Origin: Gemmatimonadota bacterium
Lineage (GTDB): Bacteria > Gemmatimonadota > Gemmatimonadetes > Gemmatimonadales > Gemmatimonadaceae
DNA length: 56,093 bases
Assembly: GCA_947461225.1 (NCBI GenBank)
Contig: CANHJV010000004.1
Span: 1-56,093 of the forward strand
Direction of reading: 5' to 3'
Shown: positions 31,119-47,007 of the stretch, piece by piece
Layout of the letters: each line of letters begins with the position of its first letter
Position numbering within the stretch: the first letter of the stretch is position 1
Translations under genes and position numbers: made by a program
Notes under the pieces: generated by a model
Database searches by the model: none
What the model saw: only the letters and a program-made list of their open reading frames with translations
What the model was told of the DNA's origin: nothing

Positions 31119-31568
31119 TCAGCGGAGAAGTCGGACGAGATCAAGCACAAGAACAGTACTCCCACCACGCGTGAAGGTGGCGATGGCGCCGGTGCGATGC
31201 GCATCGGGATGATCGGCCGGCAGCGGCAACACCTCGCTGGCATCGACACTCACCACGTCATGCACCGCGTCCACCGGGAGCGCCCACCAGTCGTCGTTCA
31301 CATGCGCCACGAGTACGCGTCGCAGCCCGACGGCTCCACCGCCGAGGGCGAGGCCGAGCGGCGCGGCGAGATCGGCGTACGGAAGCTCGCGCGCCTCGAA
31401 TGATAGGCTCGGTGCGCCGGTGGACGGACGCAGCACGCGGTCGATGAGTTCGACCGGCCCGGCCAGACGATGCTCCCCGATCGAGAAACAGACGAACGTG
31501 GCACGCTCCACCGCCGCGACGGCGCGACGGCGGACGGCGAACATCGCCGTCGACTTGAACGTGCTCAC
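31119..31568 (-). CDS. cheW: CheW-like chemotaxis coupling protein
   Basis: 149 residues with one CheW domain: FVCFSIGEHRLAGPVELIDRV, LPYADLAAPLGL, RVLVAHVNDDWWALPVDAVHDVVSV and the C-terminal STVLVLDLVRLL. CheW couples CheA to receptors. It begins seven bases after the cheB stop. It is a second CheW in this cluster, more divergent than the one at 44038-44532. Confidence 0.85.
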   Translation of the reverse strand: MSTFKSTAMFAVRRRAVAAVERATFVCFSIGEHRLAGPVELIDRVLRPSTGAPSLSFEARELPYADLAAPLGLALGGGAVGLRRVLVAHVNDDWWALPVDAVHDVVSVDASEVLPLPADHPDAHRTGAIATFTRGGSTVLVLDLVRLLR

Positions 31569-31575
31569 CGGACGC

Positions 31576-32769
31576 TCACGCGATCTGCTCCACGTGGTCG
31601 TGGGCCGTACCCTGCCCCGCCACGAGTCGCGTGATCGCCGCCGGCAGGTCCTGAAGGGCCACGATTTCGTCGGCGCCGGCCACGCGTAGCGCGGTGTCCG
31701 GCATTCCCGGAATCACGCACGAGCTGTGCTCCTGCACGACCGCAAGCCCGCCGGCCTGTCGAATGGCCAGCAGACCATCCGCGCCGTCACGGCCCATGCC
31801 CGTGAGCACGACGCCGAGGCACGCCGCGCCGTAGCCGCGCGCGACCGACGTGAAGAGTCGATCGGCCGCCGGGCGCACGCCCCATTCGGTGGGCTCCTGA
31901 TCGAGCAGCGCGCATGGCGCGCGCGGCGTACCACCCACCCGCAGATGAAAGCCACCGGGTGCCACGTACACGTGACCGGCGAGCAGCGGCTCGCCGTGCA
32001 TCGCCTCGTGTACCGCCAACCGCGAGATCCCGTGCAATCGGCTCGCGAAGCTGGCCGTGAACCCCGCCGGCATATGCTGCACGATGAGCACCGCGGCATG
32101 CGTAAAGCGTGGTAACGACGGAATAAGTTGACTCAGCGCCGCCGGGCCGCCCGTGGATGCGGCGATGCACACGACGAACGACGGGGCCTGCCCATACGCC
32201 GGCGGCGAGGCGGCCCGCGCCGGTGAGTGCAGGCCGCGATCGTACGCCGACCCGCGAGCGACCGCATCGGCCGGCACGCCCGAGCGCATTGGCGTTGGCG
32301 TTGACACGCCGAGCACCGTGACCACGGCGGCCGCACGCAACGCCTCGAGCAGTTGGTCGCGCACGAGTTCGAGGTCAAGACTGATCGCTCCCGACGGCTT
32401 TCGCACGAACTCGACCGCCCCGCGATCGAGCGCACGCAGCGTGGCCTCGGCGCCGCCGTCGCTGCCGCCCGCACTCAACATCACAACTGGCCGCGGCCAG
32501 TCCCGCATGATCCGGTCGAGACAGCCCAAGCCATCGAGGTTGGGCATGTCCACGTCGAGCGTGACCAGGTCGGGATCGAGCAGCGGGATCTGCCGCAACG
32601 CATCCAGTCCATCACACGCGGTCCCGACCACCTCGAACTCGCCGGTGGATATCACGATGTCGCTGACGAGCCGGCGCATGAACGCGCTGTCGTCCACCAC
32701 GAGCACGCGCCGGCGTTCGCCGAGGCGTTCGCCGAGGCCTTCGCCAGCCGGAGCGTTAGAGGTGGACAT
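31576..32769 (-). CDS. cheB: chemotaxis response regulator protein-glutamate methylesterase
   Basis: 397 residues from the ATG at 32769. An N-terminal receiver domain (VLVVDDSAFMRRLVSDIV, phospho-acceptor D72 in TLDVDMPNLDG, K in FVRKPSG) is joined by a linker to a methylesterase domain with CIAASTGGPAAL, QHMPAGFTASFASRL and TGMGRDGADGL, the serine, histidine and aspartate regions. It would demethylate or deamidate receptors, yet no receptor or CheR gene is in the window. Just after the start a 12-nt unit is repeated about three times (32713-32748), coding for GLGE/RLGE. Confidence 0.95.
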   Translation of the reverse strand: MSTSNAPAGEGLGERLGERRRVLVVDDSAFMRRLVSDIVISTGEFEVVGTACDGLDALRQIPLLDPDLVTLDVDMPNLDGLGCLDRIMRDWPRPVVMLSAGGSDGGAEATLRALDRGAVEFVRKPSGAISLDLELVRDQLLEALRAAAVVTVLGVSTPTPMRSGVPADAVARGSAYDRGLHSPARAASPPAYGQAPSFVVCIAASTGGPAALSQLIPSLPRFTHAAVLIVQHMPAGFTASFASRLHGISRLAVHEAMHGEPLLAGHVYVAPGGFHLRVGGTPRAPCALLDQEPTEWGVRPAADRLFTSVARGYGAACLGVVLTGMGRDGADGLLAIRQAGGLAVVQEHSSCVIPGMPDTALRVAGADEIVALQDLPAAITRLVAGQGTAHDHVEQIA

Positions 32770-33004
32770 CGTCACCGCGCACGGTGCGGGCGTGGACCCG
32801 CCCGGTGGATACGTCGAAGTACACGGAGCGCCCGAAGTCGCCGCCCACCGCTTCACCCACGATCCGAATGTCATGAACAGCGCAGGCCGCGCGCGCCGCC
32901 TGCATGCGGGAGCGCATGGGCGGCACCGGCGGTGAGATCGGCGATGCCGCCCGTGTGTTGGGTCATCGCCGTGACACGACGCGCGTGCCGAGCGATCGCC
33001 TCAT
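32756..33004 (-). pseudogene. cheD: cheD remnant (C-terminal half, in-frame stop)
   Basis: An ATG at 33004 overlaps the upstream stop as ATGA, but the frame hits TGA at 32965-32963 after 13 codons. Beyond the stop the same frame stays open and encodes CAVHDIRIVGEAVGGDF and GRSVYFDVSTGRVHARTV, ending at 32756 inside the start of cheB. This is the conserved C-terminal part of CheD receptor deamidases. The N-terminal part with the catalytic Cys and His is missing. An ATG at 32917 could still give a 53-residue peptide. A truncated, decaying cheD fits best. Confidence 0.55.
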
Positions 33005-34677
33005 GCCGCGCCCCCCACCAGGGCGTCGTCGCTGGCGGCGACCGGTACGGATTCCGACGGCGTGGAGCGGCGCATCGCCTCGAGATTGGCGCGCACGATG
33101 GCGTTGTCCGGGGCGAGCGCCAGCGCCTGCTCCCACGACGACTGTGCCTCAGCCAGCGCGCCACGGCGGTAGTGGATATTTCCGAGTTTGAGATACACAT
33201 CGGGCCCGTGCGACGGCATCAATCGCACCACGCGCACGAAGGACTCGAAGGCTTCGTCGTAGCGCTGCGCGCGGTAGAGGTAGTCGCCGAGGTTCTTGTG
33301 CAGATGGGCGCAGTTCGCATCCTCGAGCAACGCGTGCTCGATCGTGCGGGCGGCCAGCTCATAGCTGCCGCGCCGCTCCTGCACGACGGCCAGATTGTTG
33401 TGCAGCGCGGCCGCGTGCGGATGCAACGTGAGGCCCTCTTCCAGCACCACCGCCGCCCGCGCACTGTCACCGCCAAGCGCGGCGGCCAGTCCGGCCACGT
33501 GAAACCAGGCGGCCGACGGCTGCCGGGCGCCCCACGCCGTGCGCGCCTCGGCCAGCGCCGCCTCGGCGCCAGCGAGGTCCCCCCCACGCAGTGCGATCGT
33601 GGCCTGGGACAGCGCGATCCGCGGGTCGGGTACGACGACGCGGCGCGTGGCGTCATCGAGGAACGCCGCGGCCGCGACGAGGTCGCCGCGCTGTTCGCAG
33701 ACAAAGGCGAGGTTGTGCAGGACGGCCGCAGGCGCGTCGGGCTCCTGCGAGGCGCGCAGAAACGTGGCGTAGGCGCCCGCCCAGTCCCGCCGTCGCAGCT
33801 GCACGAGCCCCAGATGGAAGCGCGACACCCCGTCGGCTTCCCGCAGCTCGAGCACCCGACGGAATTCACGCTGGGCTTCGTCGAGCATGCCGGTGCGATA
33901 AAACGCGATACCGAGATTGCGGTGCTCGGCCACGCGGCTCTCCGGTGGCGGCTGACGCCGCGCGGCACTCCGCCCCACGCGCTGCACGTAGCCGGCGGTG
34001 AGCAGGCCGAAGACGGCCTGGCCGACTTCGAACTCGCCGAGTCCCGAGCGCTCGATGACCATGGTGAGATCCTGCGTGCCATCGAGCAACAGCAGGATGC
34101 GCTCCTGCGTCGCGCTCAACGGGACTTCGCGCTGCGCGAGCCGCGGACCATCGAGCTCGAAGATCAGATCGAGACTCGGTACTTTCTTCGCGATCTGCGT
34201 CCACTCGTCGACGCGGCGCGCACCTTCCAGCAGCAGCGAGTCGGCACTGACCGACACGAGGGCCGCGTCGGGCGACTCATCGGCCTCCGGCTCGAACGTG
34301 AACGACCCGAGCGACCAGCTGAAGAGGTAGTACACGGCCTCCTCGACCTGCGTCCGATACTCGCCGACGAGCACCTCGCGCTCGAGGAGTCCCTGCGCCA
34401 ACAGCGCGTGGGCGAGCTCGCGATCATCCTGCGGCGCACGGGCCGCGATGACGCGTGCGAGATCGTCGGGCGTGATCGCGCCGATGCGAACCAGTCGGTC
34501 GCCGAGCCGATCGCGACGATTTACCAGCTCGGCGTGCACGATGCGGCCGCTCGCGAAGTGCACGGTCCCAAAGCTGCCCTCACGCGCGACGCTGAGACAT
34601 CCGGTCTTCTGACCAAGCGCCAACAGCTGCAGCACGTCGGCCAGCGAGGCCTCGCTGAGATTTCCGCGGATCGCCAT
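33001..34677 (-). CDS. DUF4388 (PatA-like N-terminal) protein with TPR repeats
   Basis: 558 residues. The first about 200 residues match the DUF4388 pattern (IRGNLSEASLADVLQLLALGQ, GTVHFASGRIVHAE, EEAVYYLFSWSLGSFTFEP). A winged-helix-like stretch (SATQERILLLLDGTQDLTMVIE) and then seven or more TPR units follow. DUF4388 modules occur in cyanobacterial PatA and in many signalling proteins of motile, polarised bacteria; their ligand is unknown. The gene is coupled to the AAA+ gene upstream by a one-base overlap and to cheD/cheB downstream. Confidence 0.85.
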   Translation of the reverse strand: MAIRGNLSEASLADVLQLLALGQKTGCLSVAREGSFGTVHFASGRIVHAELVNRRDRLGDRLVRIGAITPDDLARVIAARAPQDDRELAHALLAQGLLEREVLVGEYRTQVEEAVYYLFSWSLGSFTFEPEADESPDAALVSVSADSLLLEGARRVDEWTQIAKKVPSLDLIFELDGPRLAQREVPLSATQERILLLLDGTQDLTMVIERSGLGEFEVGQAVFGLLTAGYVQRVGRSAARRQPPPESRVAEHRNLGIAFYRTGMLDEAQREFRRVLELREADGVSRFHLGLVQLRRRDWAGAYATFLRASQEPDAPAAVLHNLAFVCEQRGDLVAAAAFLDDATRRVVVPDPRIALSQATIALRGGDLAGAEAALAEARTAWGARQPSAAWFHVAGLAAALGGDSARAAVVLEEGLTLHPHAAALHNNLAVVQERRGSYELAARTIEHALLEDANCAHLHKNLGDYLYRAQRYDEAFESFVRVVRLMPSHGPDVYLKLGNIHYRRGALAEAQSSWEQALALAPDNAIVRANLEAMRRSTPSESVPVAASDDALVGGAA

Positions 34678-36410
34678 TACCGGTACTCCTCGATTAATCG
34701 TCCGCCGAGGTCCGGCCAGTTCCAGATGGTCTTCTCCCGATCCTCGAAGAAGCGGTCCAGGTCACCCGGCGCGCGCTCCACCAGCTGCTCCACGCGGTGA
34801 CGTTCGCGCGACTGCAACGCCACCACGAGGCCGCCCTCGAAGCGCGAGCGTAGCCGATCGGCGAGTTCGGGCAGCTCGCGCGGTGGGTGCGTGCTGGTGA
34901 GCACGATTTGCGATCCGCGCTCGTACAAATGGTTGAACAGGTGAAACAGTTCTTCCTGCGTGCGCTCCTTCCCCGCCAACACCTCCACGTCGTCGAGAAT
35001 GAAGACATCCGCGGCGCGGAATCGCAGGCGCCAGCGCTCCATGCCCCCTTCCTGCATGGCCGCGATTAACTCATCCACGAATGCGGTCGCCGACAGGCAG
35101 GCCACGGCGGCACGGGCGCGCATGGCATTCCCGAGGGCGTGTGCCAGATGAGATTTGCCGCTGCCCGCTGGGCCACAGATAAAGAGCGGATTGTAGCGGG
35201 TGCCCGGATTCACGATCACCGAGTCGATCGCCTTCACGGCCAGCTGATTGGCGCTGCTGATGTCGAGGTGCTCGCGCGTGAACACTGGCGAGGGGGCGGG
35301 CAACGGTAAGGTGCTGGCCATCGCGCGCTCCACCAACTGCTGCGCCAGCGGAATCGAGGCCACATCACGGAACGCCGCGTGTCCCCGCAGCGCCGGATCG
35401 AGGCTGCTCGCCTGCGCTTCCAGACGGCGAAGATGGTCGATCGCGGCGGTGAACGTGGCGATCAGCCCGTCCACGTCGGGTGCGGTGGGCAAATTCATGG
35501 CCCGTTCGAGCACGGCGATGCTGTAGCCCTGACTCTTCCAGCGGGACATCGCCTCGCCCAGCGCCACGCGCCACGGTTCCACCCGCGTCTCAACTTCCTG
35601 CAGCACGTCGGCGAGGAACCCCTCGTAATCCGTGCCATCGGGGATAATCGCTTCAAGCCGCGGCGGATGCGACGACACCGGCGCCGGCGACGCCCGCTCG
35701 CCCAGTACCGCCCGGACATCAAGGGGCGCAACCGGTGTTCCCTCGAGCTGCTGAAACGCGGAGAGCTTGTTGAGCGCGCCCTTGAGCTCGCGGACATTGC
35801 CGAAGGCGAGACGCGCCACTTCGTTCAACACGCCGTCGGCGAACTCCACACCGCGTCCCCCCGCGACGTTGCGGAGGATGGCGAGACGCATCTCGTAGTC
35901 GGGCGCCCCGACGTCGACCACCAATCCACCGATGAGTCGCGAGAGCAAACGCTGATCGACATCAGGAATCTCAGACGGCTGCCGATCGCTGGTGAGTACC
36001 AGCTGCCGGCCGGAGCTCTGCATGCTGTTGAAGAGGCGCAGCAACTCGGACTGCGTCTCCCGCTGCCCGGTGAGAAACTGCACGTCGTCGAGGATCAGCA
36101 GCTCCACCGGCTGATAGTGTTCGGCGAAGCGCTGTCCCTGTCCGCTGGCGATCACGCGGTGCAGATGCTCGGCCACGTCTTCGCCCGAGGTGAACTCGAC
36201 CCGCAGATCGGGGTTGGCCGCGCGCGCGTGATGCGCGATCGCCGCCACGAGGTGGGTTTTGCCGAGCCCGGAGCCCCCGTACACGAACAGCGGATTGTAG
36301 GCGATGCCTAGTGCCTCGGCCACGGCACGCGCGGCCGAGACCGCAAGACGGTTCGACGATCCGACCACGAAGGTGTCGAAGCGGTAGGTGCCGTCGATCG
36401 GACCGCTCAT
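34677..36410 (-). CDS. tandem DnaA-type AAA+ ATPase, lacks DNA-binding domain
   Basis: 577 residues from the ATG at 36410, with GAGG five bases upstream. The first AAA+ domain (about 1-235) has Walker A GGSGLGKT (45-52), Walker B LLILDDVQF, a sensor-like LTSDRQPSEIPDVDQRLLSR and a DnaA-like NVRELKGALNKL. A helical middle region (about 260-370) follows. The second domain has GPAGSGKS (K419), VFILDDVEV (D473, D474) and LTSTHPPRELPELADRLRSR. There is no DnaA domain IV helix-turn-helix. It may be a signalling or polarity ATPase rather than an initiator. Its neighbours are MglA and DUF4388 proteins. Confidence 0.85.
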   Translation of the reverse strand: MSGPIDGTYRFDTFVVGSSNRLAVSAARAVAEALGIAYNPLFVYGGSGLGKTHLVAAIAHHARAANPDLRVEFTSGEDVAEHLHRVIASGQGQRFAEHYQPVELLILDDVQFLTGQRETQSELLRLFNSMQSSGRQLVLTSDRQPSEIPDVDQRLLSRLIGGLVVDVGAPDYEMRLAILRNVAGGRGVEFADGVLNEVARLAFGNVRELKGALNKLSAFQQLEGTPVAPLDVRAVLGERASPAPVSSHPPRLEAIIPDGTDYEGFLADVLQEVETRVEPWRVALGEAMSRWKSQGYSIAVLERAMNLPTAPDVDGLIATFTAAIDHLRRLEAQASSLDPALRGHAAFRDVASIPLAQQLVERAMASTLPLPAPSPVFTREHLDISSANQLAVKAIDSVIVNPGTRYNPLFICGPAGSGKSHLAHALGNAMRARAAVACLSATAFVDELIAAMQEGGMERWRLRFRAADVFILDDVEVLAGKERTQEELFHLFNHLYERGSQIVLTSTHPPRELPELADRLRSRFEGGLVVALQSRERHRVEQLVERAPGDLDRFFEDREKTIWNWPDLGGRLIEEYR

Positions 36411-36417
36411 GCGCACC

Positions 36418-37128
36418 TCATACGTCACCGCTGGCGACGCCGGTGAGCATATCCGTGGTCACGAGGCCGGTGTGCAGCGCGGGCGTAAACGGGGGCGTGC
36501 GCAACGCGAGGGCCGCGCGGTGCGCGGTCTCCGTGCCCTCATCGGCTCCGAGGCGTTTGAGCACCCGCATGCCGAGTGACCGCAGCGTGTCGAACACGCC
36601 CGGGCCATGCAGCGCGTCGCCGGCGAACTCTGGTACCGCGCGGAAGTTCAGCGCCACCGACAGCTCCGCCATGCTGGCGGCCAGCGAGGCGGGTAGGTCC
36701 TGCTTGTTGTACTGCATCACGAGGGGCAGACCACGCGCGTCGACACCGTGCTCAGCAAGATTCGCGTGCAGGTCCTTCAGGCTCTCGAGGTTGTCGTCCC
36801 AGCGATGCCGCTGACTGTCGGCCACGAACGCGATCCCGTCGGCGCCTTGCAGTACGAGCTGCCGGATCGCGCGGTAGTACGGCTGTCCCGGCACCGTGTA
36901 CAGCTGGAAGCGGACGCGATAGGCGCCCACCGTGCCGAGATCGACGGGGAGATAGTCAAAAAAGAGCGTGCGGTCGCGACGGGTGGCCAGCGACGTGAGC
37001 TCGCCGACCTGCGTCCCCGGCAACGCCGAGTGCAGATAGGTGAGGTTCGTCGTCTTGCCAGACCGTCCAGGCCCGTAGTAGACCAACTTGCAGGTGATCA
37101 GCCGTGTGGCATGATCGACAATGGGCAT
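36418..37128 (-). CDS. MglA-type small GTPase
   Basis: 236 residues. A Ras-like GTPase with G1 YYGPGRSGKTTNL (19-26), LYTVPGQPYY as the switch II/DxxG equivalent, and NKQDLP as the specificity motif. The preceding strand FDYLPVDLGTVGAY matches MglA proteins, which set leading-pole polarity in Myxococcus and related organisms. It is longer than the usual 195, with about 35 extra C-terminal residues. No MglB-type Roadblock protein is adjacent. The gene ends seven bases before the AAA+ gene starts. Confidence 0.9.
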   Translation of the reverse strand: MPIVDHATRLITCKLVYYGPGRSGKTTNLTYLHSALPGTQVGELTSLATRRDRTLFFDYLPVDLGTVGAYRVRFQLYTVPGQPYYRAIRQLVLQGADGIAFVADSQRHRWDDNLESLKDLHANLAEHGVDARGLPLVMQYNKQDLPASLAASMAELSVALNFRAVPEFAGDALHGPGVFDTLRSLGMRVLKRLGADEGTETAHRAALALRTPPFTPALHTGLVTTDMLTGVASGDV

Positions 37129-37202: not shown

Positions 37203-38363
37203 TTACGGATGCAGCAGCGCATGCAACCGGGCCGTGAGCGCCATCGCCTCGCGCACGCGATCTGCGCCAGCAAACGGCCCAGGCAACCGGAGGGCAGCGG
37301 TCCAGTGCGTCATCGCGTCGGCGAAGTCACCACGTCGGGCCGCTTCGTCACCGAGCCGGCACAACGCGGTGGCATCGACGCGCGGTGCGATGCCGACCGT
37401 CTCCCCTCGCGGCATGGACGGTTCAGCGGCCTGTGACGCAACCGGTGGCGACGCCATCCACGGCGTACGCCGTCGGGGGAGTCCCTCAGCGGAAATCACC
37501 CCCACCTGCACGGGATCGAAGAGGGAATCCTCCTCGTTGCCGGCCGACGTCTCGTCGAGCGTGGCCGACGAGTGCCGCGTGTGCGCCGCGGTAGGAATCC
37601 AGAGATCACCGGCGATCTCACGCCGCTCGGGGACCGGAATGGCCGCCATGGCGGGCGGGGTCGGATTTCGCCGCGGTGCCACGGGCCCTTCGCGGAGGGT
37701 CAGCAGCCCGGCCCCGATGAGTCCGTGCACCTGCTCCGCCACCTCCAGCACGTCACGCCCGAGCGACTCCGCCAGCCGCCGGAGGTCGCGCTGCCCATCG
37801 ACGCGGGTCAGGATCTCCCACTGCGCCGGCGCCAGCCGCAGCAGTGGCAGCTGCTGCGGTTCGACGTCCACGAACGCCGGCACCACGCGCGAATGGGGGA
37901 CTCGGTCCTGGATCCGCGCCCAGCCCTCTGCCCGTTGGGCGGCCTCCATCAGTAGCGGTTCGATGGCCAACCGGATCGAGGCGCCAGTGGGGGCCTGCTC
38001 GTCGGCCGGTGCAAACCGGAACACCCCGTCGCGCCAGAGCAGCAGGTCGAGCATGATCGCTTCGACCTCGCGGGCTTCATCGGCCGTGCGCGGAGGCAGG
38101 CCCCCGGACGCGTCATACGCACTCCATGCTCCCGCATTGACCACGCTGCCCTGCTGAAAATGCACGGCGGCGTGTCGGCCCTGCAGTGCCGCTTCCAGAT
38201 GCAGCACCCCCGACTTGCGGCTCAGCGCGAGCAACTGCAGCACCTCGGCGAGACCGAGTTCGCGAAGACGGCCCTCGAGACTCACGATGCGCTCATGCGA
38301 CACGCGCTCATGCGACACGCGCTCATGCGACACGCGCTCATGCGACACGCGCTCATGCGACAC
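37203..38363 (-). CDS. DUF4388 protein with pentapeptide-repeat start
   Basis: About 386 residues if translation begins at the first of five identical GTG codons (38363). The frame is open further upstream, but that part overlaps the TPR gene. The N-terminus is then VSHER repeated five times, followed by a DUF4388 domain (SLEGRLRELGLAEVLQLLAL, AAVHFQQGSVVNAGAWS, DLLLWRDGVFRFAPAD), a helical segment (ILTRVDGQRDLRRLAESLG) and a C-terminal helical repeat. It overlaps the end of the upstream TPR gene by 11 bases. It is a second DUF4388 protein of this cluster. Confidence 0.8.
   Translation of the reverse strand: MSHERVSHERVSHERVSHERVSHERIVSLEGRLRELGLAEVLQLLALSRKSGVLHLEAALQGRHAAVHFQQGSVVNAGAWSAYDASGGLPPRTADEAREVEAIMLDLLLWRDGVFRFAPADEQAPTGASIRLAIEPLLMEAAQRAEGWARIQDRVPHSRVVPAFVDVEPQQLPLLRLAPAQWEILTRVDGQRDLRRLAESLGRDVLEVAEQVHGLIGAGLLTLREGPVAPRRNPTPPAMAAIPVPERREIAGDLWIPTAAHTRHSSATLDETSAGNEEDSLFDPVQVGVISAEGLPRRRTPWMASPPVASQAAEPSMPRGETVGIAPRVDATALCRLGDEAARRGDFADAMTHWTAALRLPGPFAGADRVREAMALTARLHALLHP
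38289..38363. repeat. 5 x 15-bp perfect tandem repeat at gene start
   Basis: Five exact copies of GCGCTCATGCGACAC lie head to tail. On the minus strand each copy is GTGTCGCATGAGCGC, giving a GTG start codon and the peptide VSHER in the DUF4388 frame. The first copy also contains the TGA stop of the TPR gene (38355-38353). Because the unit is a multiple of three, copy-number change would add or remove start codons and five residues without a frameshift. Confidence 0.95.
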
Positions 38364-41046
38364 GCGCCGGATCGATCGGGGCACCGCTCCCGTACACCGC
38401 GTGTGACAGCGCCTGTCGAGCGCGCTGTACGAAGGCATCCACCTCTCGGACCTGGGCGAGACCGGCCCAACGCGCGAGCGCGTCGCGCGTGCGCGACTGC
38501 TGCGCCAGGAGTACGCCGTCGAACCAACGCGCACTCGTATTGTCGGGGTCATGCCGCAGCACACGGTCCACCACGATGCGCGCGTCGTGCGGACGATCTT
38601 CGCCAACGAGCACTTCGATGAGCAGCTGGAGCGCGTCGGTATCGGTCGGCCGACGTTTCAGCAGGTCGACGAGAATCCAGCGGGCATCCGCGTGGCGTCG
38701 CGCGTCGCGATGGACGCGCGCCAGTTCGAGGACCGCGTCACGCCAGTTCGGCACCGCGGACAATGCCGCCACCAACTCGAGGCGCGCGGCCAGCAGATCG
38801 CCACGCTCCCGCAGCACGCGCGCGATCGCCACCCGTGCCGTCGGTCGCGCTGGATCGTGCGCCAGCGCGCGGCGATAGAAGCCAAGCGCCAGCGCTTCGT
38901 CGTGCATCGTGGTCGCGGCGTCGCCGGCGAAGTGCAGCAGCGCCGCACTCGTGACATCCTGTCGCAGCAGACGCAGCATGGCGGAGCGCGCCGTCTCGGC
39001 GCTGGCCGGATCGCGCTCGGCGTCCGACGCGGCGGCGAAGGCGAACACGGCGAGCACTTCGGGATGATGCGGCCAGACGGCGCCGGCTCGTTTCAGCTGT
39101 GCGAGCGCTTCGGCGCCACGACCAAGGAGACAGAGCGAGCGCGCCTCACCCAAGGTGGCGCGCTGCCACACCAGTTGCACGGGGGGCGCCAGGTCAGCCA
39201 CCGAGGGCGCGTCGACCAGCGTGCGGGCCCGTGCATAGCGATCGAGCGCTTCACCGTGCACGGTGCGCGACGCATAGCCATCAGCGTCGTCGCAGGCCTG
39301 CGCGGCGTCGGCGAGCGCCTGAGCCATGGGATCATGGCTGGTCCCGTTCGCAGGAATGGGGCCGGGCGTTGTGGTGGGCAGATCGGGCGACTGCTCCGGG
39401 AGGAGTGCCGCCAACTCATCCGCAGGCAGCGCGATCCCGCGCAGCGGCAATCCCCCCCGCATCGCGAGTAACTCAAGCGGACCGACAGCATCCGGACACT
39501 CGTGCTGGAGGTCGATCGCGACCGACAGGCGTGACGCGGTGCGTAGCGGCGCGTACTTCATCGCCTGCTGCATTTCACGCGCGGCGCCGTCGGCGTCGCC
39601 GAGTCGCTCGAGCACGCCCGCCAGACCGAACCGCGCTTCGGCATGCGACGGTCGACATTCGATCGCCGTCAGGAACGCATCGCGCGCCTCTTCCGTGCGC
39701 TCCAGCGTCTGCAACACCGTCCCCATCACCTTCCACGATTCCGCGTCGCGCGGGTGAAAGGCCACCAGTTCGCGCACCACGGTGAGCGCCGCGAGCGGGT
39801 CGCGTTGTTCGGCGAACCAGCGCGCCAGATTCAGCCGAGCCACGATCAGTGGGGGATCGAGCTCGGACGCCCGCACGAACGACTCGCGCGCCGCCCGGTG
39901 ATCACCAAGATCGTCGAGCGCGACACCGAGATTGTTGTACGCCAGCGCATGCCGCGGATCGAGACGCAGCGCCCGGCGATAGCTCTCGGCGGCGCCATGC
40001 ACGTCGCCGGATTGGTGCATCGCCACGCCATGCTCATTCCACAGTCGCGGTTGTTCCTGCCGCGCGAGCAGCGCGTCGTACCGGACGCGCGCGTCGTCGA
40101 ATCGCCCCGCGATCACGTCGAGTTCACCGAGCGCATGCTCCGCCAGGCGTGCGTCTTCACCGCTGGCCAGCGACCGTTCGAACTCTCGACGGGCTTCGTC
40201 GAAGTAGCCGCGCTGCCGGAAGGCGAGCCCGAGACCGTAGCGGGCGAGCGCGCCTTCTGGCTCCACGCTCATCATGCCGCTGACCGGCGATGTATCGATC
40301 GTCATGGGCGCGCCGGCCAGCCCACCCGATTCGATCGACAGATCGATCTGCGCCGTGGACAGCGTGGGGTTCAGCTGTGACGCGACACGCGCGGAAGCAA
40401 TGGCCGCATCGTGACGCCCCATGTCGCCGAGCACGAAGCCGCGCAGCATATGCGCCTCGGCGCTCTCGGCGTGCTGGGATAGCAGCATGTCGAGACATGC
40501 AAGTGCCTGCTCGTTCTGTCCGCGCTGATAGAGGACCTCCGCGAGATGCAACCGGGCGTCGGTGTCGGTGCCACCCAGATTTACGGCGCGTTCGAACCAG
40601 CGCTGCGCTCGGCGGAGATCGCCGGCCCGCTGCTCGATCAACCCACGCTCGAACAGCGCGGCTGCGTCATCGGGATCTTCGGCAATCAGCGTTTCGAGCT
40701 GTCGGATGGCGGCATCGCTGCGGCCCACCAGCCGCGACAGGCGCGCGCGCTCCAGCGCCGCCGCGCGATCATCGGGATCGGCCGCGACGCGTGCATCGAG
40801 TGCGGCCATCCGCGCATCACAGGCGCCCGGCTGCTCGGCCGCGATCTCGAGATTCCGCGCGGCGGTGCGCATGCGCGGATCGATGGCGAGGGCGCGCAGG
40901 AACGCATCGACCGCTTCCGCGTGCAGTCCGCGCGCGTGATACAACACCCCGAGGTTGTTGAACGCACCGGGGTCCTGCTGGTCCACACGCTCGATGAGCG
41001 CGCGCAGCAGTTCCACGTCGCGGCCAGCCGACATGACGGACGACAT
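38353..41046 (-). CDS. large TPR protein of the chemosensory cluster
   Basis: 897 residues, no signal peptide. It is built almost entirely from TPR units: FNNLGVLYHARGLHAEAVDA, RLHLAEVLYQRGQNEQALAC, RYGLGLAFRQRGYFDEARRE, AYNNLGVALDDLGDHRAARE and others, with a less repetitive middle of about 60 residues around 545-600. Presumably a cytoplasmic scaffold binding several partners. It starts 20 bases after cheC and ends inside the tandem repeat that begins the DUF4388 gene. Confidence 0.85.
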   Translation of the reverse strand: MSSVMSAGRDVELLRALIERVDQQDPGAFNNLGVLYHARGLHAEAVDAFLRALAIDPRMRTAARNLEIAAEQPGACDARMAALDARVAADPDDRAAALERARLSRLVGRSDAAIRQLETLIAEDPDDAAALFERGLIEQRAGDLRRAQRWFERAVNLGGTDTDARLHLAEVLYQRGQNEQALACLDMLLSQHAESAEAHMLRGFVLGDMGRHDAAIASARVASQLNPTLSTAQIDLSIESGGLAGAPMTIDTSPVSGMMSVEPEGALARYGLGLAFRQRGYFDEARREFERSLASGEDARLAEHALGELDVIAGRFDDARVRYDALLARQEQPRLWNEHGVAMHQSGDVHGAAESYRRALRLDPRHALAYNNLGVALDDLGDHRAARESFVRASELDPPLIVARLNLARWFAEQRDPLAALTVVRELVAFHPRDAESWKVMGTVLQTLERTEEARDAFLTAIECRPSHAEARFGLAGVLERLGDADGAAREMQQAMKYAPLRTASRLSVAIDLQHECPDAVGPLELLAMRGGLPLRGIALPADELAALLPEQSPDLPTTTPGPIPANGTSHDPMAQALADAAQACDDADGYASRTVHGEALDRYARARTLVDAPSVADLAPPVQLVWQRATLGEARSLCLLGRGAEALAQLKRAGAVWPHHPEVLAVFAFAAASDAERDPASAETARSAMLRLLRQDVTSAALLHFAGDAATTMHDEALALGFYRRALAHDPARPTARVAIARVLRERGDLLAARLELVAALSAVPNWRDAVLELARVHRDARRHADARWILVDLLKRRPTDTDALQLLIEVLVGEDRPHDARIVVDRVLRHDPDNTSARWFDGVLLAQQSRTRDALARWAGLAQVREVDAFVQRARQALSHAVYGSGAPIDPARVA

Positions 41047-41066: not shown

Positions 41067-41687
41067 TCAGGCGAGCCGCAGCGCGCGGAGCATCACCTGC
41101 AACGAGGCGGGATCGGGAAGCAGCAAGAAGAAGCCGCGCAGCGACTGCTGCATCTCCATGAGCTGGAACTCGCTTTCGACGCAGAGAATCGCATCGGGAT
41201 CGGGAGCGAACTCGCCGATCGCGCTGGTCAGCACGGCGGTGGACATGTCGATCACGAGGCTGGGCGGCGACGGCAGCAGCAGCATCCCGAGGAAATCACT
41301 GAGCGCGTTCATGTACGCACCACTCAGGATGTTCGCCGCTTCCTTGATCGCGGACGTCTCGAGTTCACTGAACGCCGTGGACGACCCCACCGGACGGCGT
41401 AGCATCAGCTCGGCCAGCCGCAGCACCGTGGGTCTCGGGAACACGAGCATCGTGCGGCCGCTGAGATCCCCGAGCATGTGCATCAGGACCGCCGCCACCG
41501 GCTCTTCCTCCGGTGCGAACTGCGACGGCAGCTCCTCCATACTGCAGACCGTGATGTTCGGCACCTTGATCATGATCGTGCTGCCGGTCATCTGCGACAA
41601 CGCTGTCGCGGCGTGACCCGCGCCGATATTGGCCGTTTCACGCAGTGCATCCAGCTGGAGGGTCTTGAGAGACCGGATCGCCGACAT
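41067..41687 (-). CDS. cheC: CheC-type CheY-phosphate phosphatase
   Basis: 206 residues from the ATG at 41687 (AAGGTG eight bases upstream); a GTG at 41708 is an alternative. Two CheC/CheX/FliY-type active-site motifs are present: ETANIGAG (E17, N20) and EAANILSG (E116, N119), each within the usual D/S-x3-E-x2-N context. CheC removes phosphate from CheY and partners with CheD in receptor adaptation. Here CheD is decayed, so CheC may act only as phosphatase. It lies 38 bases after cheA. Confidence 0.9.
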   Translation of the reverse strand: MSAIRSLKTLQLDALRETANIGAGHAATALSQMTGSTIMIKVPNITVCSMEELPSQFAPEEEPVAAVLMHMLGDLSGRTMLVFPRPTVLRLAELMLRRPVGSSTAFSELETSAIKEAANILSGAYMNALSDFLGMLLLPSPPSLVIDMSTAVLTSAIGEFAPDPDAILCVESEFQLMEMQQSLRGFFLLLPDPASLQVMLRALRLA

Positions 41688-41725
41688 GGTCACATCACCT
41701 TCGGTCACGAGTCGCCTTCACGGAG

Positions 41726-43642
41726 TCATGCCACACTACTCACATCGACGATGAGCGCGGGGCTCCCGTCACCGAGGACGGTGGCTCCACTGAACCACGG
41801 TCGGGCACCGCGGACGGCGTCCAGCGGCTTGACGACGATGTCTTGCTGGGCGAGGAGCGCATCTACCAGCAGGGCCGTTCTCCGCCCCGCCACCTCGACG
41901 ATCGCGACATGGCGCACACCGTCCGGATTAGCCACGGCCGGCGCGTGCGGGTCGTCTTCGAAGCGCTGCTGGAGCGCGACAAGCGGAACGATTTCGTCCC
42001 GCACCGTGATGGTGAGCGCACCCGTGCGTCGAGACGCGCCGTTGAACTCGAGCACTTCCATCACGTGCGCGGCTGGAATGGCGTAGGTCTCGCCCCCCAC
42101 CTGCACCAGTAGCGCGCGCATGATGGCCAGCGTCAGCGGTAGCCGCATCGTGAACACGGTGCCTTCGCCGGTGATGGTTTCGAGATCGATCTGCCCGCCG
42201 AGGGCGCGTACGCGGGTATTCACCACGTCTACACCCACGCCGCGTCCGGAGAGCGAGGTCACCGATTTCGCCGTCGAGAATCCCGGATGCGCGAGCAGCT
42301 GCAACAGCACGTCATCGGCCAGCGTGGTGACCTGCTCGCCCACCAATCCCTGCTCGTGGGCGCGACGTAACACCGCGTCGCGATCGATGCCGCGCCCGTC
42401 ATCCTGCACCTGGATCACGACGGCGGCCCGATCGCGCGCCGCGCGCAGAATGAGTGCCCCGCTGGCCGGTTTCCCCGCCGCCCGCCGGGTCTCGGCGTCT
42501 TCGACGCCGTGATCGAGCGCGTTGCGCAGCAGGTGCATGATGGGGTCGCCAATGGCGTCCAGCAGCGAGCGATCGAGTTCGATGTCGCGGCCCTCCATCG
42601 TCAAGTGCACGTCCTTGCCGAGCGCGTGTGCGATGTCGCGCACGAGACGCGGGAACCGATCGAACACCTGCGCCACCGGCAGCATGCGCGCCTGCAGCAC
42701 TTCGTCCTGCAGCGTCGCCACCAGTCGCGCCGCATCAGTCGCCGCCCGCATCACGGCGCGATCGGGATGTTCCGACTGCTCGATGGCGCGGAGCAGTCGG
42801 TCGCGCGTGATCACCAACTCGCCCACGAGATCGAGCAGCGTATCGAGCCGGCGCGCGTCGAGGCGGATCGTGCGGGGCGCCTCACGTACGCGGGCGGTCC
42901 CCTGCGCCGGCGTGGGCGTCGCCAGCGTCACCACGACCCGGGCAACATCACCGGCACGCTGCGCCGCCGCGCGGATCTCGTCGTCAGTCGCCGACGACTG
43001 CAGGGTGAGTCGGAAGGCCCCATCGAAGAGAGCATCCTGCCAGCGCTCCTGCGGCGGCTCGGTGCGGCGCACGGTCCCCAGCGCGGACAGCTTGGCCAGC
43101 ACGATCATGGCCCGCACGCCCTTGAGGGGAGAGTCCACCGTGAGACGAATGTCCACCCGCCGCAACGTGCCGAACGACCCGTTGGGGGCGTCGGTGGGAA
43201 CCACCGCGTCGGTTGGCGTCTCCGCGAGGCTGGCGGCGGCACCCCAAGCGGCGGCGGGCGCGAGGCCCAACCGTTCGACGAACGCGCGCACCACCGAGGT
43301 GGGTTCGACGCGACCACTCGAGACTGCATCGACGGCGGCGCGCAGGAGATCGGTCCCATCGAACAGCAGCGCGAGCACATCGCCGCTCAGCGGTTCTTCA
43401 CCACGCCGCAGCGGCTCGCACCGGCTCTCGAGCGCATGCGACAGCTGCTCGACCGCGGCGTGGCCCATGGCCGCCGCCATCCCTTTGATCGTGTGCACGC
43501 CGCGAAACACCGTGGCGAGGTGCGTGCCGGCCATCGACGGGTTGGCGTGCGCGCGTTCGAGCGCGAGCAACGCGTCATCGACCTCCGTGAGATGCTCGCG
43601 CGACTCACTGAGGAACAGCGCGGCGTACCGGGCAGCGTCCAT
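41726..43642 (-). CDS. cheA: chemotaxis histidine kinase CheA
   Basis: 638 residues with all five CheA domains. P1: Hpt with H50 in VHTIKGMAAAMG. P2-like: DIRLTVDSPLKGVRAMIVLAKL, a ferredoxin-like response-regulator binder. P3: RLDTLLDLVGELVITRDRLL dimerisation. P4: kinase, N-box LLRNALDHGVEDAETR, VQDDGRGID, SGRGVGVDVV and GEGTVFTMRLP. P5: CheW-like regulatory domain to the end. It phosphorylates CheY and CheB. It is 33 bases after cheY. Confidence 0.96.
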   Translation of the reverse strand: MDAARYAALFLSESREHLTEVDDALLALERAHANPSMAGTHLATVFRGVHTIKGMAAAMGHAAVEQLSHALESRCEPLRRGEEPLSGDVLALLFDGTDLLRAAVDAVSSGRVEPTSVVRAFVERLGLAPAAAWGAAASLAETPTDAVVPTDAPNGSFGTLRRVDIRLTVDSPLKGVRAMIVLAKLSALGTVRRTEPPQERWQDALFDGAFRLTLQSSATDDEIRAAAQRAGDVARVVVTLATPTPAQGTARVREAPRTIRLDARRLDTLLDLVGELVITRDRLLRAIEQSEHPDRAVMRAATDAARLVATLQDEVLQARMLPVAQVFDRFPRLVRDIAHALGKDVHLTMEGRDIELDRSLLDAIGDPIMHLLRNALDHGVEDAETRRAAGKPASGALILRAARDRAAVVIQVQDDGRGIDRDAVLRRAHEQGLVGEQVTTLADDVLLQLLAHPGFSTAKSVTSLSGRGVGVDVVNTRVRALGGQIDLETITGEGTVFTMRLPLTLAIMRALLVQVGGETYAIPAAHVMEVLEFNGASRRTGALTITVRDEIVPLVALQQRFEDDPHAPAVANPDGVRHVAIVEVAGRRTALLVDALLAQQDIVVKPLDAVRGARPWFSGATVLGDGSPALIVDVSSVA

Positions 43643-43675: not shown

Positions 43676-44041
43676 TTACGCCGCCAGCACGCGATTCACG
43701 GCTTCGAGCACGCGACTGGGCTGAAACGGCTTCACGACGAAGTCTTTGGCACCCGCCTGAATGGCTTCGACCACCAGCGCCTGCTGACCCATCGCACTGC
43801 ACATGAGAATGCGCGCGGCGGGATCGAGCGTCGTGATCTCGCGCACCGCATCGATGCCACCCATGTCTGGCATCACGATGTCCATCGTGACGAGGTCCGG
43901 GCGGAGCTGTTGGTAGCGCTCCACGGCCTGGACGCCTGTTTCCGCTTCTCCGATGATCTCGAAGCCCGCCTGAGTGAGAATGTCCCCCACCATGGTGCGC
44001 ATGAAGATCGCGTCGTCGCAAATGAGTACCGTTCGGCTCAC
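43676..44041 (-). CDS. cheY: single-domain response regulator CheY
   Basis: 121 residues from the GTG at 44041, which overlaps the cheW stop as GTGA and has GAGGG a few bases upstream. A stand-alone receiver: acidic pocket LICDDAIFMR, phospho-acceptor D54 in VTMDIVMPDMGG, ILMCSAMG serine and FVVKPF lysine. The frame is open upstream to 44374 but that part is a shadow of cheW. Its output target is not a flagellar switch gene here. Confidence 0.93.
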   Translation of the reverse strand: MSRTVLICDDAIFMRTMVGDILTQAGFEIIGEAETGVQAVERYQQLRPDLVTMDIVMPDMGGIDAVREITTLDPAARILMCSAMGQQALVVEAIQAGAKDFVVKPFQPSRVLEAVNRVLAA

Positions 44042-44532
44042 CGTTCCCTCTCGTCGGCTGAATGCAGGTGCCGCGCGCAGAGCGCCACGGCGTCCAGCGG
44101 CACGATGCGATCGAGGGTGGCCGCGGACTCGGGTTGGACCTCGAGCGACGCCTCCAGCACGCGGACATCGTGCACGGCATGCACGGCGAGCCCGATGAGG
44201 CGCGATCCGTACTCGAGGAGGACGACCGACCCCGCCGTGACGGCACGCTCTCCCGACAGGAGGGCTTGGAGGTCCAGCACGGTGACGATGGCGCCCCGCA
44301 CGTTGACGATGCCGCGCAGCACCGGCGGACTGCCGGGCACGCGGCGGAGGGCCGCACTCCGGATCACCTCGCAAACCTGCTCGACCGGGATGCCGAACGC
44401 CCCCCGGTCGGCCGCGACGACCAGCACCCGGGGGCGCTGGTCGTCGCCGTCGTCGCTAATCGAGGGCGTCGTCGTGATCGTCCGGCTTGTGTCCGGGGAG
44501 GACTTCGTCGGTTTTGTAGAACCCGAAGACAT
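44038..44532 (-). CDS. cheW: CheW chemotaxis coupling protein
   Basis: 164 residues if started at the ATG at 44532, which would overlap the rluD end by 77 bases; a GTG near 44427 is an alternative that begins at VLVVAADRGAFGIPVEQVCE. The CheW domain is clear: PPVLRGIVNVRGAIVTVLDL, LLEYGSRLIGLAVHAVHDV and a C-terminal helix. First gene of the chemosensory cluster in transcription order. Confidence 0.9.
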   Translation of the reverse strand: MSSGSTKPTKSSPDTSRTITTTPSISDDGDDQRPRVLVVAADRGAFGIPVEQVCEVIRSAALRRVPGSPPVLRGIVNVRGAIVTVLDLQALLSGERAVTAGSVVLLEYGSRLIGLAVHAVHDVRVLEASLEVQPESAATLDRIVPLDAVALCARHLHSADERER

Positions 44533-45502
44533 CGAGCGGATCCTGGTGCGTGGCGAGTTCCGGCATGAGGCTGACCACCGACAACGAGTGCCGCAGGTCC
44601 GCCGGGAGCGGCGAACGCAGGTCGACCGGCGCCCCGGTGATCGGATGACGGAAGCGCAGCCAGGCCGCGTGCAGGAAGTGCCGCTTGCCGGGCAACTCTA
44701 CCAGGCGCCGTCCCCCCCCTCCCCCGTACGTATCGTCGCCCACCACCGGGTGGCCGATCGCCGATAAGTGCACACGGATCTGATGCGTCCGCCCGCTGTG
44801 CAGGTGGGCCCGCAGCAGATCGGCCGAGTCGAAACGACCGAGGCGCACGAAATCGGTTCGCGACATCCGTCCATCAGGGACGATCGTCATCTTGGTTCGG
44901 TCCCGTGGATCGCGGCCGATCGGCTTTTCCACCGTGATGTTGTCGGTGGCGAGGTGTCCCCAGCAGAGGGCCACGTACCGGCGCGTGACCTTGCGGGCGG
45001 CCAGCGCTGCGCTGAGCGACCGGTGGGCGACATCGGTCTTGGCGACGATGAGCAGGCCCGAGGTGTCCTTGTCGAGACGGTGCACGAGGCCGGCGCGCTC
45101 CTCGCTACCACCGTCGGCCAACGGCTCGCCCCGACCGATCAGGGCGTTCACCAGCGTGCCCGTCCAATTGCCCGGCGCCGGGTGCACGACCATACCGGCG
45201 GCCTTGTCGACCACCAGCAGGTACTCGTCTTCGTAGACGATATCGAGCGGAATGTTCTCCGGGATGATGTCGCGGCCCGGCGGCGGCGGAATGACGACGT
45301 GCAGGCGATCGCCGGCCAGGCTGCGATACGACGCCTTCTCGGCCTTGCCGTTCACGGTCACCTGTCCGGTGGCGATCAGCGTTGCCGCCTGCGTCCGGGA
45401 CAGCTCGCACCGGCGCGACACCAGCAGATCGAGCCGTTCGCCGACGTCGCCGCTGTCGTCCGTGAGGTCGAAGTCGTGCACCACGTCCGGAGACGCGCTC
45501 AC
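44456..45502 (-). CDS. rluD: RluD-type 23S rRNA pseudouridine synthase
   Basis: 348 residues from the GTG at 45502 (GTGA overlap with the second lspA); the frame is open to 45559 but overlaps lspA. An S4 RNA-binding domain (ERLDLLVSRRCELSRTQ) precedes the catalytic domain with HRLDKDTSGLLIVAK (catalytic D144) and SGRTHQIRVHLSAIGHPVVGD. The tail after about residue 310 is extended. It isomerises uridines in helix 69 of 23S rRNA if a true RluD; RluA/RluC assignment cannot be excluded. Confidence 0.9.
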   Translation of the reverse strand: MSASPDVVHDFDLTDDSGDVGERLDLLVSRRCELSRTQAATLIATGQVTVNGKAEKASYRSLAGDRLHVVIPPPPGRDIIPENIPLDIVYEDEYLLVVDKAAGMVVHPAPGNWTGTLVNALIGRGEPLADGGSEERAGLVHRLDKDTSGLLIVAKTDVAHRSLSAALAARKVTRRYVALCWGHLATDNITVEKPIGRDPRDRTKMTIVPDGRMSRTDFVRLGRFDSADLLRAHLHSGRTHQIRVHLSAIGHPVVGDDTYGGGGGRRLVELPGKRHFLHAAWLRFRHPITGAPVDLRSPLPADLRHSLSVVSLMPELATHQDPLDVFGFYKTDEVLPGHKPDDHDDALD

Positions 45503-46050
45503 GAGGTCGCCGCTTGCTGCTGTGCTTTGTCCAACTGCCACAATGCGATCACGAGACAACCGGCTCCGATAGTAACGGCAGTGTCGGCCACGTTGAACGT
45601 CCAGAAGCGGACGTCGCCGAACCCGATGTCGATGAAATCCACGACGCCGTCTCGCAGCCGAATGCGATCGAGCAGGTTGCCGATGGCTCCCCCGACCACG
45701 ACGGGCACGCCAAAGGCGGCGAGCCGTGAGATCCGGGTGAGGTCGGCCGTGGCGCGAATCAGCACCACGACAATCACGACGCTGAGCGCCGCAAAAATCC
45801 AGCGTGACGCGGGACCGAGGTGCATGCCGAAGGCCGCCCCCGGGTTGTACGCGAGCGTGAACCGCACCACATCGCCCATGATCTGATGCGGCATGTGGCG
45901 TGGCGCGAGGTACTCGACGGCCAGCGCTTTTGAGATCGCGTCGGCGGCCGTGACGAGCAGCACCAGTATCCAGAAGCGCGGTGTGGACGACGCCGCCGGC
46001 ACGTCGTTGACGACGGCCGACGCGGTGGCACTACGGGTTGAGTTGGTCAT
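45499..46050 (-). CDS. lspA: lipoprotein signal peptidase, second copy
   Basis: 183 residues with four membrane helices. The LspA signatures are intact: TAADAISKALAVEYL, FTLAYNPGAAFGM, GGAIGNLLDRIRLRDGVVDF and TFNVADTAVTIG, so both catalytic aspartates are present. It cleaves signal peptides of prolipoproteins. The ATG at 46050 overlaps the first lspA stop as ATGA. The N-terminal 25 residues are extra and polar. Confidence 0.93.
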   Translation of the reverse strand: MTNSTRSATASAVVNDVPAASSTPRFWILVLLVTAADAISKALAVEYLAPRHMPHQIMGDVVRFTLAYNPGAAFGMHLGPASRWIFAALSVVIVVVLIRATADLTRISRLAAFGVPVVVGGAIGNLLDRIRLRDGVVDFIDIGFGDVRFWTFNVADTAVTIGAGCLVIALWQLDKAQQQAATS

Positions 46051-46577
46051 AGCGAGCGGTCGGCGGATTCATGGGAGCTGTCCGCGGCGGCCGCGGCGGC
46101 CGCCATCTCGCGCTTCTCCTCGCCCCAGAGCACCAGCGCCAGCAGGAACGCGCCGCCGCTGACGGCCATGTCGGCCACATTGAACGTGGGCCAGCGATGT
46201 ACGCCGAAGCCAATATCGATGAAGTCGACAACGCCCAGATCGGACCGGATGCGGTCGATCACGTTGCCGAGGGCGCCGGCCGCCACGAGGGAGACGGCCA
46301 GCACTTTACGCAGGTCGTCGTGCGCCGTTTGCTGATAAAGCCGCCAGAGGATCACGAGGGCGCCGCACGTGAGCGCCATGAAAATCCAACGCGAGTAGTC
46401 GCCCAGATGCAGCCCGAAGGCCGCTCCCGGGTTGTACACGAGTGCGAACCGGAACCAGTTCCCGAACACCGGATTGGACAGACCGGAAGGCGCAAGCGTG
46501 GCCACCGCCACGGCCTTGGTGATCAGGTCGAGGACGAGGACAACGAGGAGAACCGGAATTGCGACGAGTGCCTTCAC
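46047..46577 (-). CDS. lspA: lipoprotein signal peptidase, first copy
   Basis: 176 residues from the GTG at 46577, which follows the DksA stop as TGATGTG. Four helices; signatures LVLDLITKAVAVATL, FALVYNPGAAFGL, AGALGNVIDRIRSDLGVVDF and TFNVADMAVSGG are complete. A charged alanine-rich tail follows. The two LspA proteins resemble each other in motif order and spacing, a tandem duplication or ancient paralogy. Confidence 0.93.
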   Translation of the reverse strand: MKALVAIPVLLVVLVLDLITKAVAVATLAPSGLSNPVFGNWFRFALVYNPGAAFGLHLGDYSRWIFMALTCGALVILWRLYQQTAHDDLRKVLAVSLVAAGALGNVIDRIRSDLGVVDFIDIGFGVHRWPTFNVADMAVSGGAFLLALVLWGEEKREMAAAAAAADSSHESADRSL

Positions 46578-46578
46578 A

Positions 46579-47007
46579 TCAGCCCTTTTTAGCGTCTTCC
46601 TCACGCTGCTTGCACGCAAAGCAGTAGCGCGCATGCGGCAAGGCGTCGAGTCGCTCGAAAGCGATGTCTTCCCCACACTGGTGGCACTTGCCGAAGGTTT
46701 CGGGCGTCTTGTACAACCGGCGCAGCGCCTGGTCGATGTGAAAGAGGAACCGCCCTTCCTGCGAGGCGAACAAGAACGCTTTTTCGCGTTCCATCGCATC
46801 GGTCCCCTGATCGGCCATATGGAACGAGTAGGCACTGGTGTCGCCATCGGCTTCGCCATTCGGACCGAAGGCTTCGCCGTGGTGCCCCAGTTCCTTGAGC
46901 ACGCGCTTCCGTTCTTCGAGCAAACGCTTTTCGAAATGCTGCAGGTGCTTCTTGGGCATCGGCTTCGACTTCTTCGCGTCCTTTGATCCGGCGTTGGATG
47001 CAGCCAT
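46579..47007 (-). CDS. DksA/TraR-family zinc-finger protein
   Basis: 142 residues from the ATG at 47007, which overlaps the ileS stop as TAATG. A lysine-rich N-terminus, a coiled-coil segment (HLQHFEKRLLEERKRVLKEL), then LRRLYKTPETFGKCHQCGED and YCFACK with four zinc-binding cysteines. Such proteins bind RNA polymerase (DksA) or are smaller conjugative regulators (TraR). Genes of this type next to lspA and ileS are common outside Proteobacteria, and their role there is unclear. Confidence 0.85.
   Translation of the reverse strand: MAASNAGSKDAKKSKPMPKKHLQHFEKRLLEERKRVLKELGHHGEAFGPNGEADGDTSAYSFHMADQGTDAMEREKAFLFASQEGRFLFHIDQALRRLYKTPETFGKCHQCGEDIAFERLDALPHARYCFACKQREEDAKKG

Follow-up and report, generated by a model that had tools for sequence, protein, structure and literature searches.

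The window analysed here is a stretch of 56,093 nucleotides from a Gemmatimonadota bacterium (assembly GCA_947461225.1, contig CANHJV010000004.1), and its minus strand encodes, at positions 34677-36410, a protein of 577 amino acids (aa) that we name DnaAx2. DnaAx2 is a real family of DnaA paralogues with a double AAA+ build; the fold is known, and the architecture and probable role appear to be new. The known tasks of DnaA-type AAA+ proteins are to initiate DNA replication or to hold it back. We give about an even chance to the reading that DnaAx2 is an ATP-driven AAA+ switch, which works with the GTPase MglA and with a protein that combines DUF4388 and tetratricopeptide repeats (DUF4388-TPR) and which, responding to Che-type input, controls the place or the timing of type IV pilus activity. 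If this reading is true, a DnaA-type machine has moved from replication into cell polarity, keeping its ATP machinery and dropping its DNA binding. The family would also offer a self-contained DnaA pair for the study of arginine-finger control and a testable motility system for the little-studied Gemmatimonadota.

The initial annotation of this DNA, made from the letters and their open reading frames, described two DnaA-type AAA+ domains in one protein, Walker A and Walker B motifs in both, and no DNA-binding domain IV, and all of this is borne out. PF00308 matches DnaAx2 twice (175.9 and 146.0 bits, with a cut-off of 23 bits), both Walker motifs are present in each domain, and a hidden domain IV was rejected because the search of DnaAx2 with PF08299 was empty even at E ≤ 1. 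The sole PF08299 match over the cut-off in this genome, as well as its third PF00308 match, belongs to a true DnaA on contig C15. The annotation had also named IstB or DnaC as another AAA+ clade to be considered. These ATPases are a related AAA+ branch, and this assignment was rejected because the whole protein scores 93.5 bits with IstB compared with 315.3 bits with Bac_DnaA (Pfam). Moreover, the DnaA profile TIGR00362 (NCBIfam) gives 428.1 bits, over its cut-off, and the curated Hda profile gives 172.4 bits, under its cut-off of 194.8; across Pfam and NCBIfam, the DnaA profiles outscore those of IstB, DnaC and Hda by a wide margin. A fold search ranked DnaA domain III first (8bv3, template modelling score 0.95 by target length). 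In a sequence search of the PDB, the best match of AAA1 is DnaA, and AAA2 matches Hda, IstB and a helicase loader among the matches listed. Unlike DnaA, which has a single AAA+ domain and a domain IV, DnaAx2 is built in the order AAA1, LINK, AAA2 and tail, with an undescribed linker and tail, and is encoded apart from the true DnaA. Searches of Pfam and the PDB found no significant relative of LINK, and the tail follows the conserved pattern REKxxWxWPxxxxRLIEEYR-stop. Hda resembles DnaAx2 in having a DnaA-type AAA+ domain without domain IV and in offering a partner domain able to supply an arginine finger; however, DnaAx2 is double and lies below the Hda cut-off.

DnaAx2 as a chance or local oddity is excluded, since the LINK profile, which is the discriminating probe for its carriers, picks out 86 of the 150 Gemmatimonadota genomes that were sampled, with a single copy in each, across families f1-f6 of the class. 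A typical carrier has three PF00308 matches, two besides that of DnaA, compared with one in most non-carriers; three non-carriers have none. A search for relatives found matches in all 41 genomes, a count that takes in ordinary DnaA. When a DnaAx2-specific AAA1 motif was used to scan across phyla, the best 80 genome loci yielded from other phyla only ordinary DnaA, with one domain and no linker or tail. Among the matches listed, the named relatives are Gemmatimonadota, and four of the five plasmid rows listed fall under annotated dnaA genes. It is likely that DnaAx2 is restricted to Gemmatimonadota. In a 98-row tree, AAA1 forms one group (Shimodaira-Hasegawa-like approximate likelihood ratio test, SH-aLRT, 100) and AAA2 another (98), and both groups split f4/f5 from f1-f3; therefore, the tandem is older than that split. 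The two halves may be sisters that arose by one internal duplication (support of 45 in this tree, where E. coli Hda sits on a very long branch, and of 75 in a smaller tree). The open-access literature that we searched describes no such double protein and no DnaA-MglA link. Six carriers (G053, G153, G116, G147, G026 and G170) show in their assemblies neither a true DnaA nor a domain IV, at a stated completeness of 91-98%. Assembly gaps are the simplest reading, because three non-carriers also have no PF00308 match; both genomes of genus g16 (G053 and G153) are without a true DnaA, and this is less readily explained by such gaps.

The initial annotation further proposed an internal dimer of equivalent ATPases. 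This proposal is not supported as stated; the asymmetry of the two halves makes a dimer of equal partners less likely. According to an alignment of 43 AAA1/AAA2 pairs to E. coli DnaA, AAA1 keeps the Walker A Lys and the Walker B Asp-Asp in all pairs, sensor 1 and R285 in 39 each, and sensor 2 R334, a residue of ATP hydrolysis in DnaA (PMC5742627), in 42. At the positions of V211 and R245, which bind single-stranded DNA (ssDNA) in DnaA (PMC5742627), it has His in 30/43 and Glu in 37/43. In AAA2, the Walker A Lys is retained in 37 pairs, D236 in 34, sensor 2 in 27 and sensor 1 in 23; R281, R285 and L290 are each kept in 40-41, R227 in 34 and K243 in most, and these five residues make domain III-domain III contacts in DnaA (PMC5742627). 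The V211-equivalent Ile/Val (37/43) and the R245-equivalent Arg (39/43) are also retained in AAA2. By less strict criteria applied to 82 homologues, both Walker motifs are present in 80 of the AAA1 and 56 of the AAA2 domains. AAA1 keeps the ATPase residues and has lost the ssDNA-contact residues of DnaA, and AAA2 keeps the contact face; because of this pattern of conservation, AAA1 looks like a putative ATP switch and AAA2 like its contact partner. The ssDNA-contact residues of AAA2, together with the co-occurrence with pili described below, would suit a motor that handles DNA, such as one for DNA uptake linked to pili. We consider such a motor very improbable, since both residues are lost from AAA1, DnaAx2 has no DNA-binding domain, AAA2 is missing in some homologues, and the cluster is of the Che/Mgl and not the competence type. 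In true DnaA proteins of the phylum (L001 and others), the R245 position is mostly Ser or Met, compared with the Arg of AAA2.

DnaA-like downstream motifs had been attributed to both domains; the AAA2 of the window is incomplete. Its sensor-1 Asp is replaced by Thr, and about 70 aa of the lid, including sensor 2, are lacking throughout the window's clade; because of the Thr and the missing sensor 2, this AAA2 probably hydrolyses ATP weakly or not at all. In many relatives, AAA2 is complete, lid and sensor 2 included (e.g., the L087 model), and the lid state has changed at least four times on the AAA1 tree. Furthermore, AAA2 is not found after the linker in six of the 82 homologues (L044, L045, L049, L056, L057 and L101, some of them from draft assemblies, in which a frameshift may play a part), and tail-like C-termini are visible in most of the six. 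The repeated decay of AAA2 or its lid and the persistence of the tail in several proteins without AAA2 would be expected of an ATP-independent scaffold, in which the AAA+ domains are a vestigial platform displaying tail and linker. However, AAA1 retains its Walker motifs in 80/82 homologues and sensor 2 in 42/43 pairs, and we regard a scaffold of this kind as improbable.

The role of DnaAx2 in pilus control is one that we infer from gene context and from these residues. The order CheA-CheC-TPR-DUF4388-MglA-DnaAx2-DUF4388TPR-CheB is kept in families f1-f4 and f6. In genome sets compiled by hand from match tables, MglA is present in 86/86 carriers compared with 28/64 non-carriers, the other 36 being without it; in families f5, f7 and f8, where MglA is not adjacent, it is present in 10/10 carriers compared with 6/37 non-carriers. 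PilT is found in 85 of the 86 carriers by a "strong PilT" cut that was set after the scores had been seen, and in part in the remaining one. FliG is found in only 35, and a flagellar role was rejected because it is missing in the other 51. In each of the genera g65 and g67, one genome has DnaAx2, MglA and PilT and its sister is without all three or has a trace PilT match only. Roadblock (MglB-type) proteins stand beside DnaAx2 in L025 and L074, and not in the window's cluster; in L025, three of them lie between DUF4388 and MglA. These observations support a switch in MglA and pilus control, as do the conservation of the AAA1 ATPase residues and of the AAA2 contact residues and the precedent of M. 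xanthus, in which MglA and the TPR protein SgmX promote pilus formation (PMC7519303; PMC11580455). The M. xanthus system shares with the DnaAx2 cluster an MglA GTPase, TPR proteins, chemosensory input and type IV pili; however, the paper on its network (PMC11580455) mentions no DnaA-like or AAA+ component. Features of an Mgl system are seen here in the adjacent MglA of the window and most families and in the co-occurrence with MglA and PilT. The earlier suggestion that a DnaA-type fold was co-opted in a signalling cluster agrees with the conserved gene order, the MglA of all carriers and the separate true DnaA of the window genome and most carriers.

In the mechanism that we propose, AAA1 would bind and hydrolyse ATP, and AAA2, which preserves the face for contacts between DnaA molecules (arginine finger, box VII and Leu290), would act mainly as the partner that completes an ATP site, either in cis or in an adjacent molecule, in a manner broadly like that of Hda towards DnaA. 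In the ATP state, DnaAx2 molecules would associate head-to-tail, the tail would anchor this assembly to a protein of the cluster, with DUF4388-TPR or MglA the most likely candidate, and ATP hydrolysis would set the lifetime of the docked complex. The complete picture, a fused DnaA-type pair that combines an ATP switch in one half with an Hda-like partner in the other and whose ATP-timed assembly sets polarity and pilus activity under a Ras-like GTPase, is more tentative, and we think it somewhat more likely to be wrong than right.

Several points weigh against a switch in pilus control. The co-occurrence counts are raw with respect to shared descent, and nearly all members of the order have PilT. 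Genus g14 (L184-L186) keeps MglA, DUF4388-TPR and the Che genes, and DnaAx2 alone is missing between MglA and DUF4388-TPR; therefore, DnaAx2 is not essential to the rest of the cluster, and this natural absence offers a comparison for its function. The AlphaFold model, with a predicted template modelling score of 0.44, is confident for the domains and gives no confident mutual placement of the AAA+ domains, which also bears on the internal dimer. Loci drawn directly from the genome sets did not enter the structure alignments. The partner role of AAA2 is one among several readings of residue conservation, and this domain is deleted in the six homologues named above. The main alternative is a regulator of replication or the cell cycle, an Hda-like protein that co-oligomerizes with true DnaA and couples the Che/MglA signal to initiation. 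It would account for the retention in AAA2 of R281, R285 and L290, in most cases of R227 and K243, and of the residues that contact ssDNA; most genomes have no evident extra Hda-like PF00308 protein, and the window's cluster adjoins cell-wall and division genes. However, 64/150 genomes are without DnaAx2 and nearly all of those have DnaA, the presence of DnaAx2 tracks MglA, which a replication factor need not do, and DnaAx2 falls below the Hda cut-off. In addition, about eight residues precede AAA1, which by a reading of the sequence leaves no room for the N-terminal clamp-binding site of Hda (PMC5742627), an internal site not having been searched for. We consider this alternative unlikely, although less so than the scaffold or the DNA motor, and a switch in MglA and pilus control remains our preferred reading.

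Table 1. Features of DnaAx2 and its gene cluster in the window
Feature	Position	Strand	Remarks
Response regulator	43676-44374	-	
CheA histidine kinase	41726-43642	-	
CheC/CheX-type phosphatase	41067-41708	-	
TPR-repeat protein	38353-41046	-	
Second DUF4388 protein	37203-38606	-	start uncertain
MglA-type GTPase	36418-37128	-	Pfam Arf / small_GTP matches
DnaAx2 coding sequence	34677-36410	-	577 aa; alternative longer GTG start at 36428 possible
AAA1, DnaA-type AAA+ base and lid	35706-36392	-	PF00308 core 35913-36392
Walker A of AAA1, GGSGLGKT	36255-36278	-	sequence
LINK, helical domain	35301-35627	-	about 110 aa
AAA2, DnaA-type AAA+ base	34821-35279	-	PF00308; lid and sensor 2 lost in window's clade
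C-terminal tail, FFEDREKTIWNWPDLGGRLIEEYR	34680-34751	-	about 24 aa; kept up to stop codon across homologues
TAATG, DnaAx2 stop overlapping DUF4388-TPR start	34675-34679	-	
DUF4388-TPR protein	33001-34677	-	
CheB	31576-32874	-	
CheW	31119-31568	-	

The cluster of the window reads, on the minus strand, response regulator, CheA, CheC/X, TPR, DUF4388, MglA, DnaAx2, DUF4388-TPR, CheB and CheW (Table 1). We take the product of 36418-37128 to be MglA by its sequence, and the Pfam matches agree. The likely start of DnaAx2 is the ATG at 36410, which has GAGGTG just upstream, lies 7 base pairs (bp) past the MglA stop, and is equivalent in position to the starts of the homologues. The TAATG overlap makes translational coupling of DnaAx2 and DUF4388-TPR likely, and in family f5, where MglA and CheA are not adjacent, these two genes stay paired. 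A frame of 109 aa (32871-33200) that overlaps the DUF4388-TPR gene is probably not a real gene. Upstream, L088 and L052 have ileS; downstream, L052 has Peptidase_MA_2; both are also near the window's cluster. Because only about 127 bp (32874-33001) separate DUF4388-TPR from CheB, the window's cluster is without CheR; the relative L184 has a CheR gene at this place. Between 31576 and 44374, next to cell-wall genes, a single Che/MglA cluster encodes three proteins of the TPR or DUF4388 kind.

DUF4388 is presumably the PATAN domain. PATAN regulators have been linked to pilus control in cyanobacteria (PMC7690835). The cyclic di-GMP (MshEN-type) motif of DUF4388-TPR scores 49.5 in L088 with a cut-off of 38, compared with 24.5, below the cut-off, in the window, and DUF4388-TPR may sense cyclic di-GMP in some relatives. 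A second MglA-type GTPase is encoded elsewhere in the genome (G000:C21:28332-28808, L196), and in G021 (L195) a second one is preceded by a Roadblock gene, with ybaB and recR nearby. Adjoining frames at 45499-46050 and 46047-46859 of the window both match PF01252 (signal peptidase II), which suggests a tandem lspA pair.
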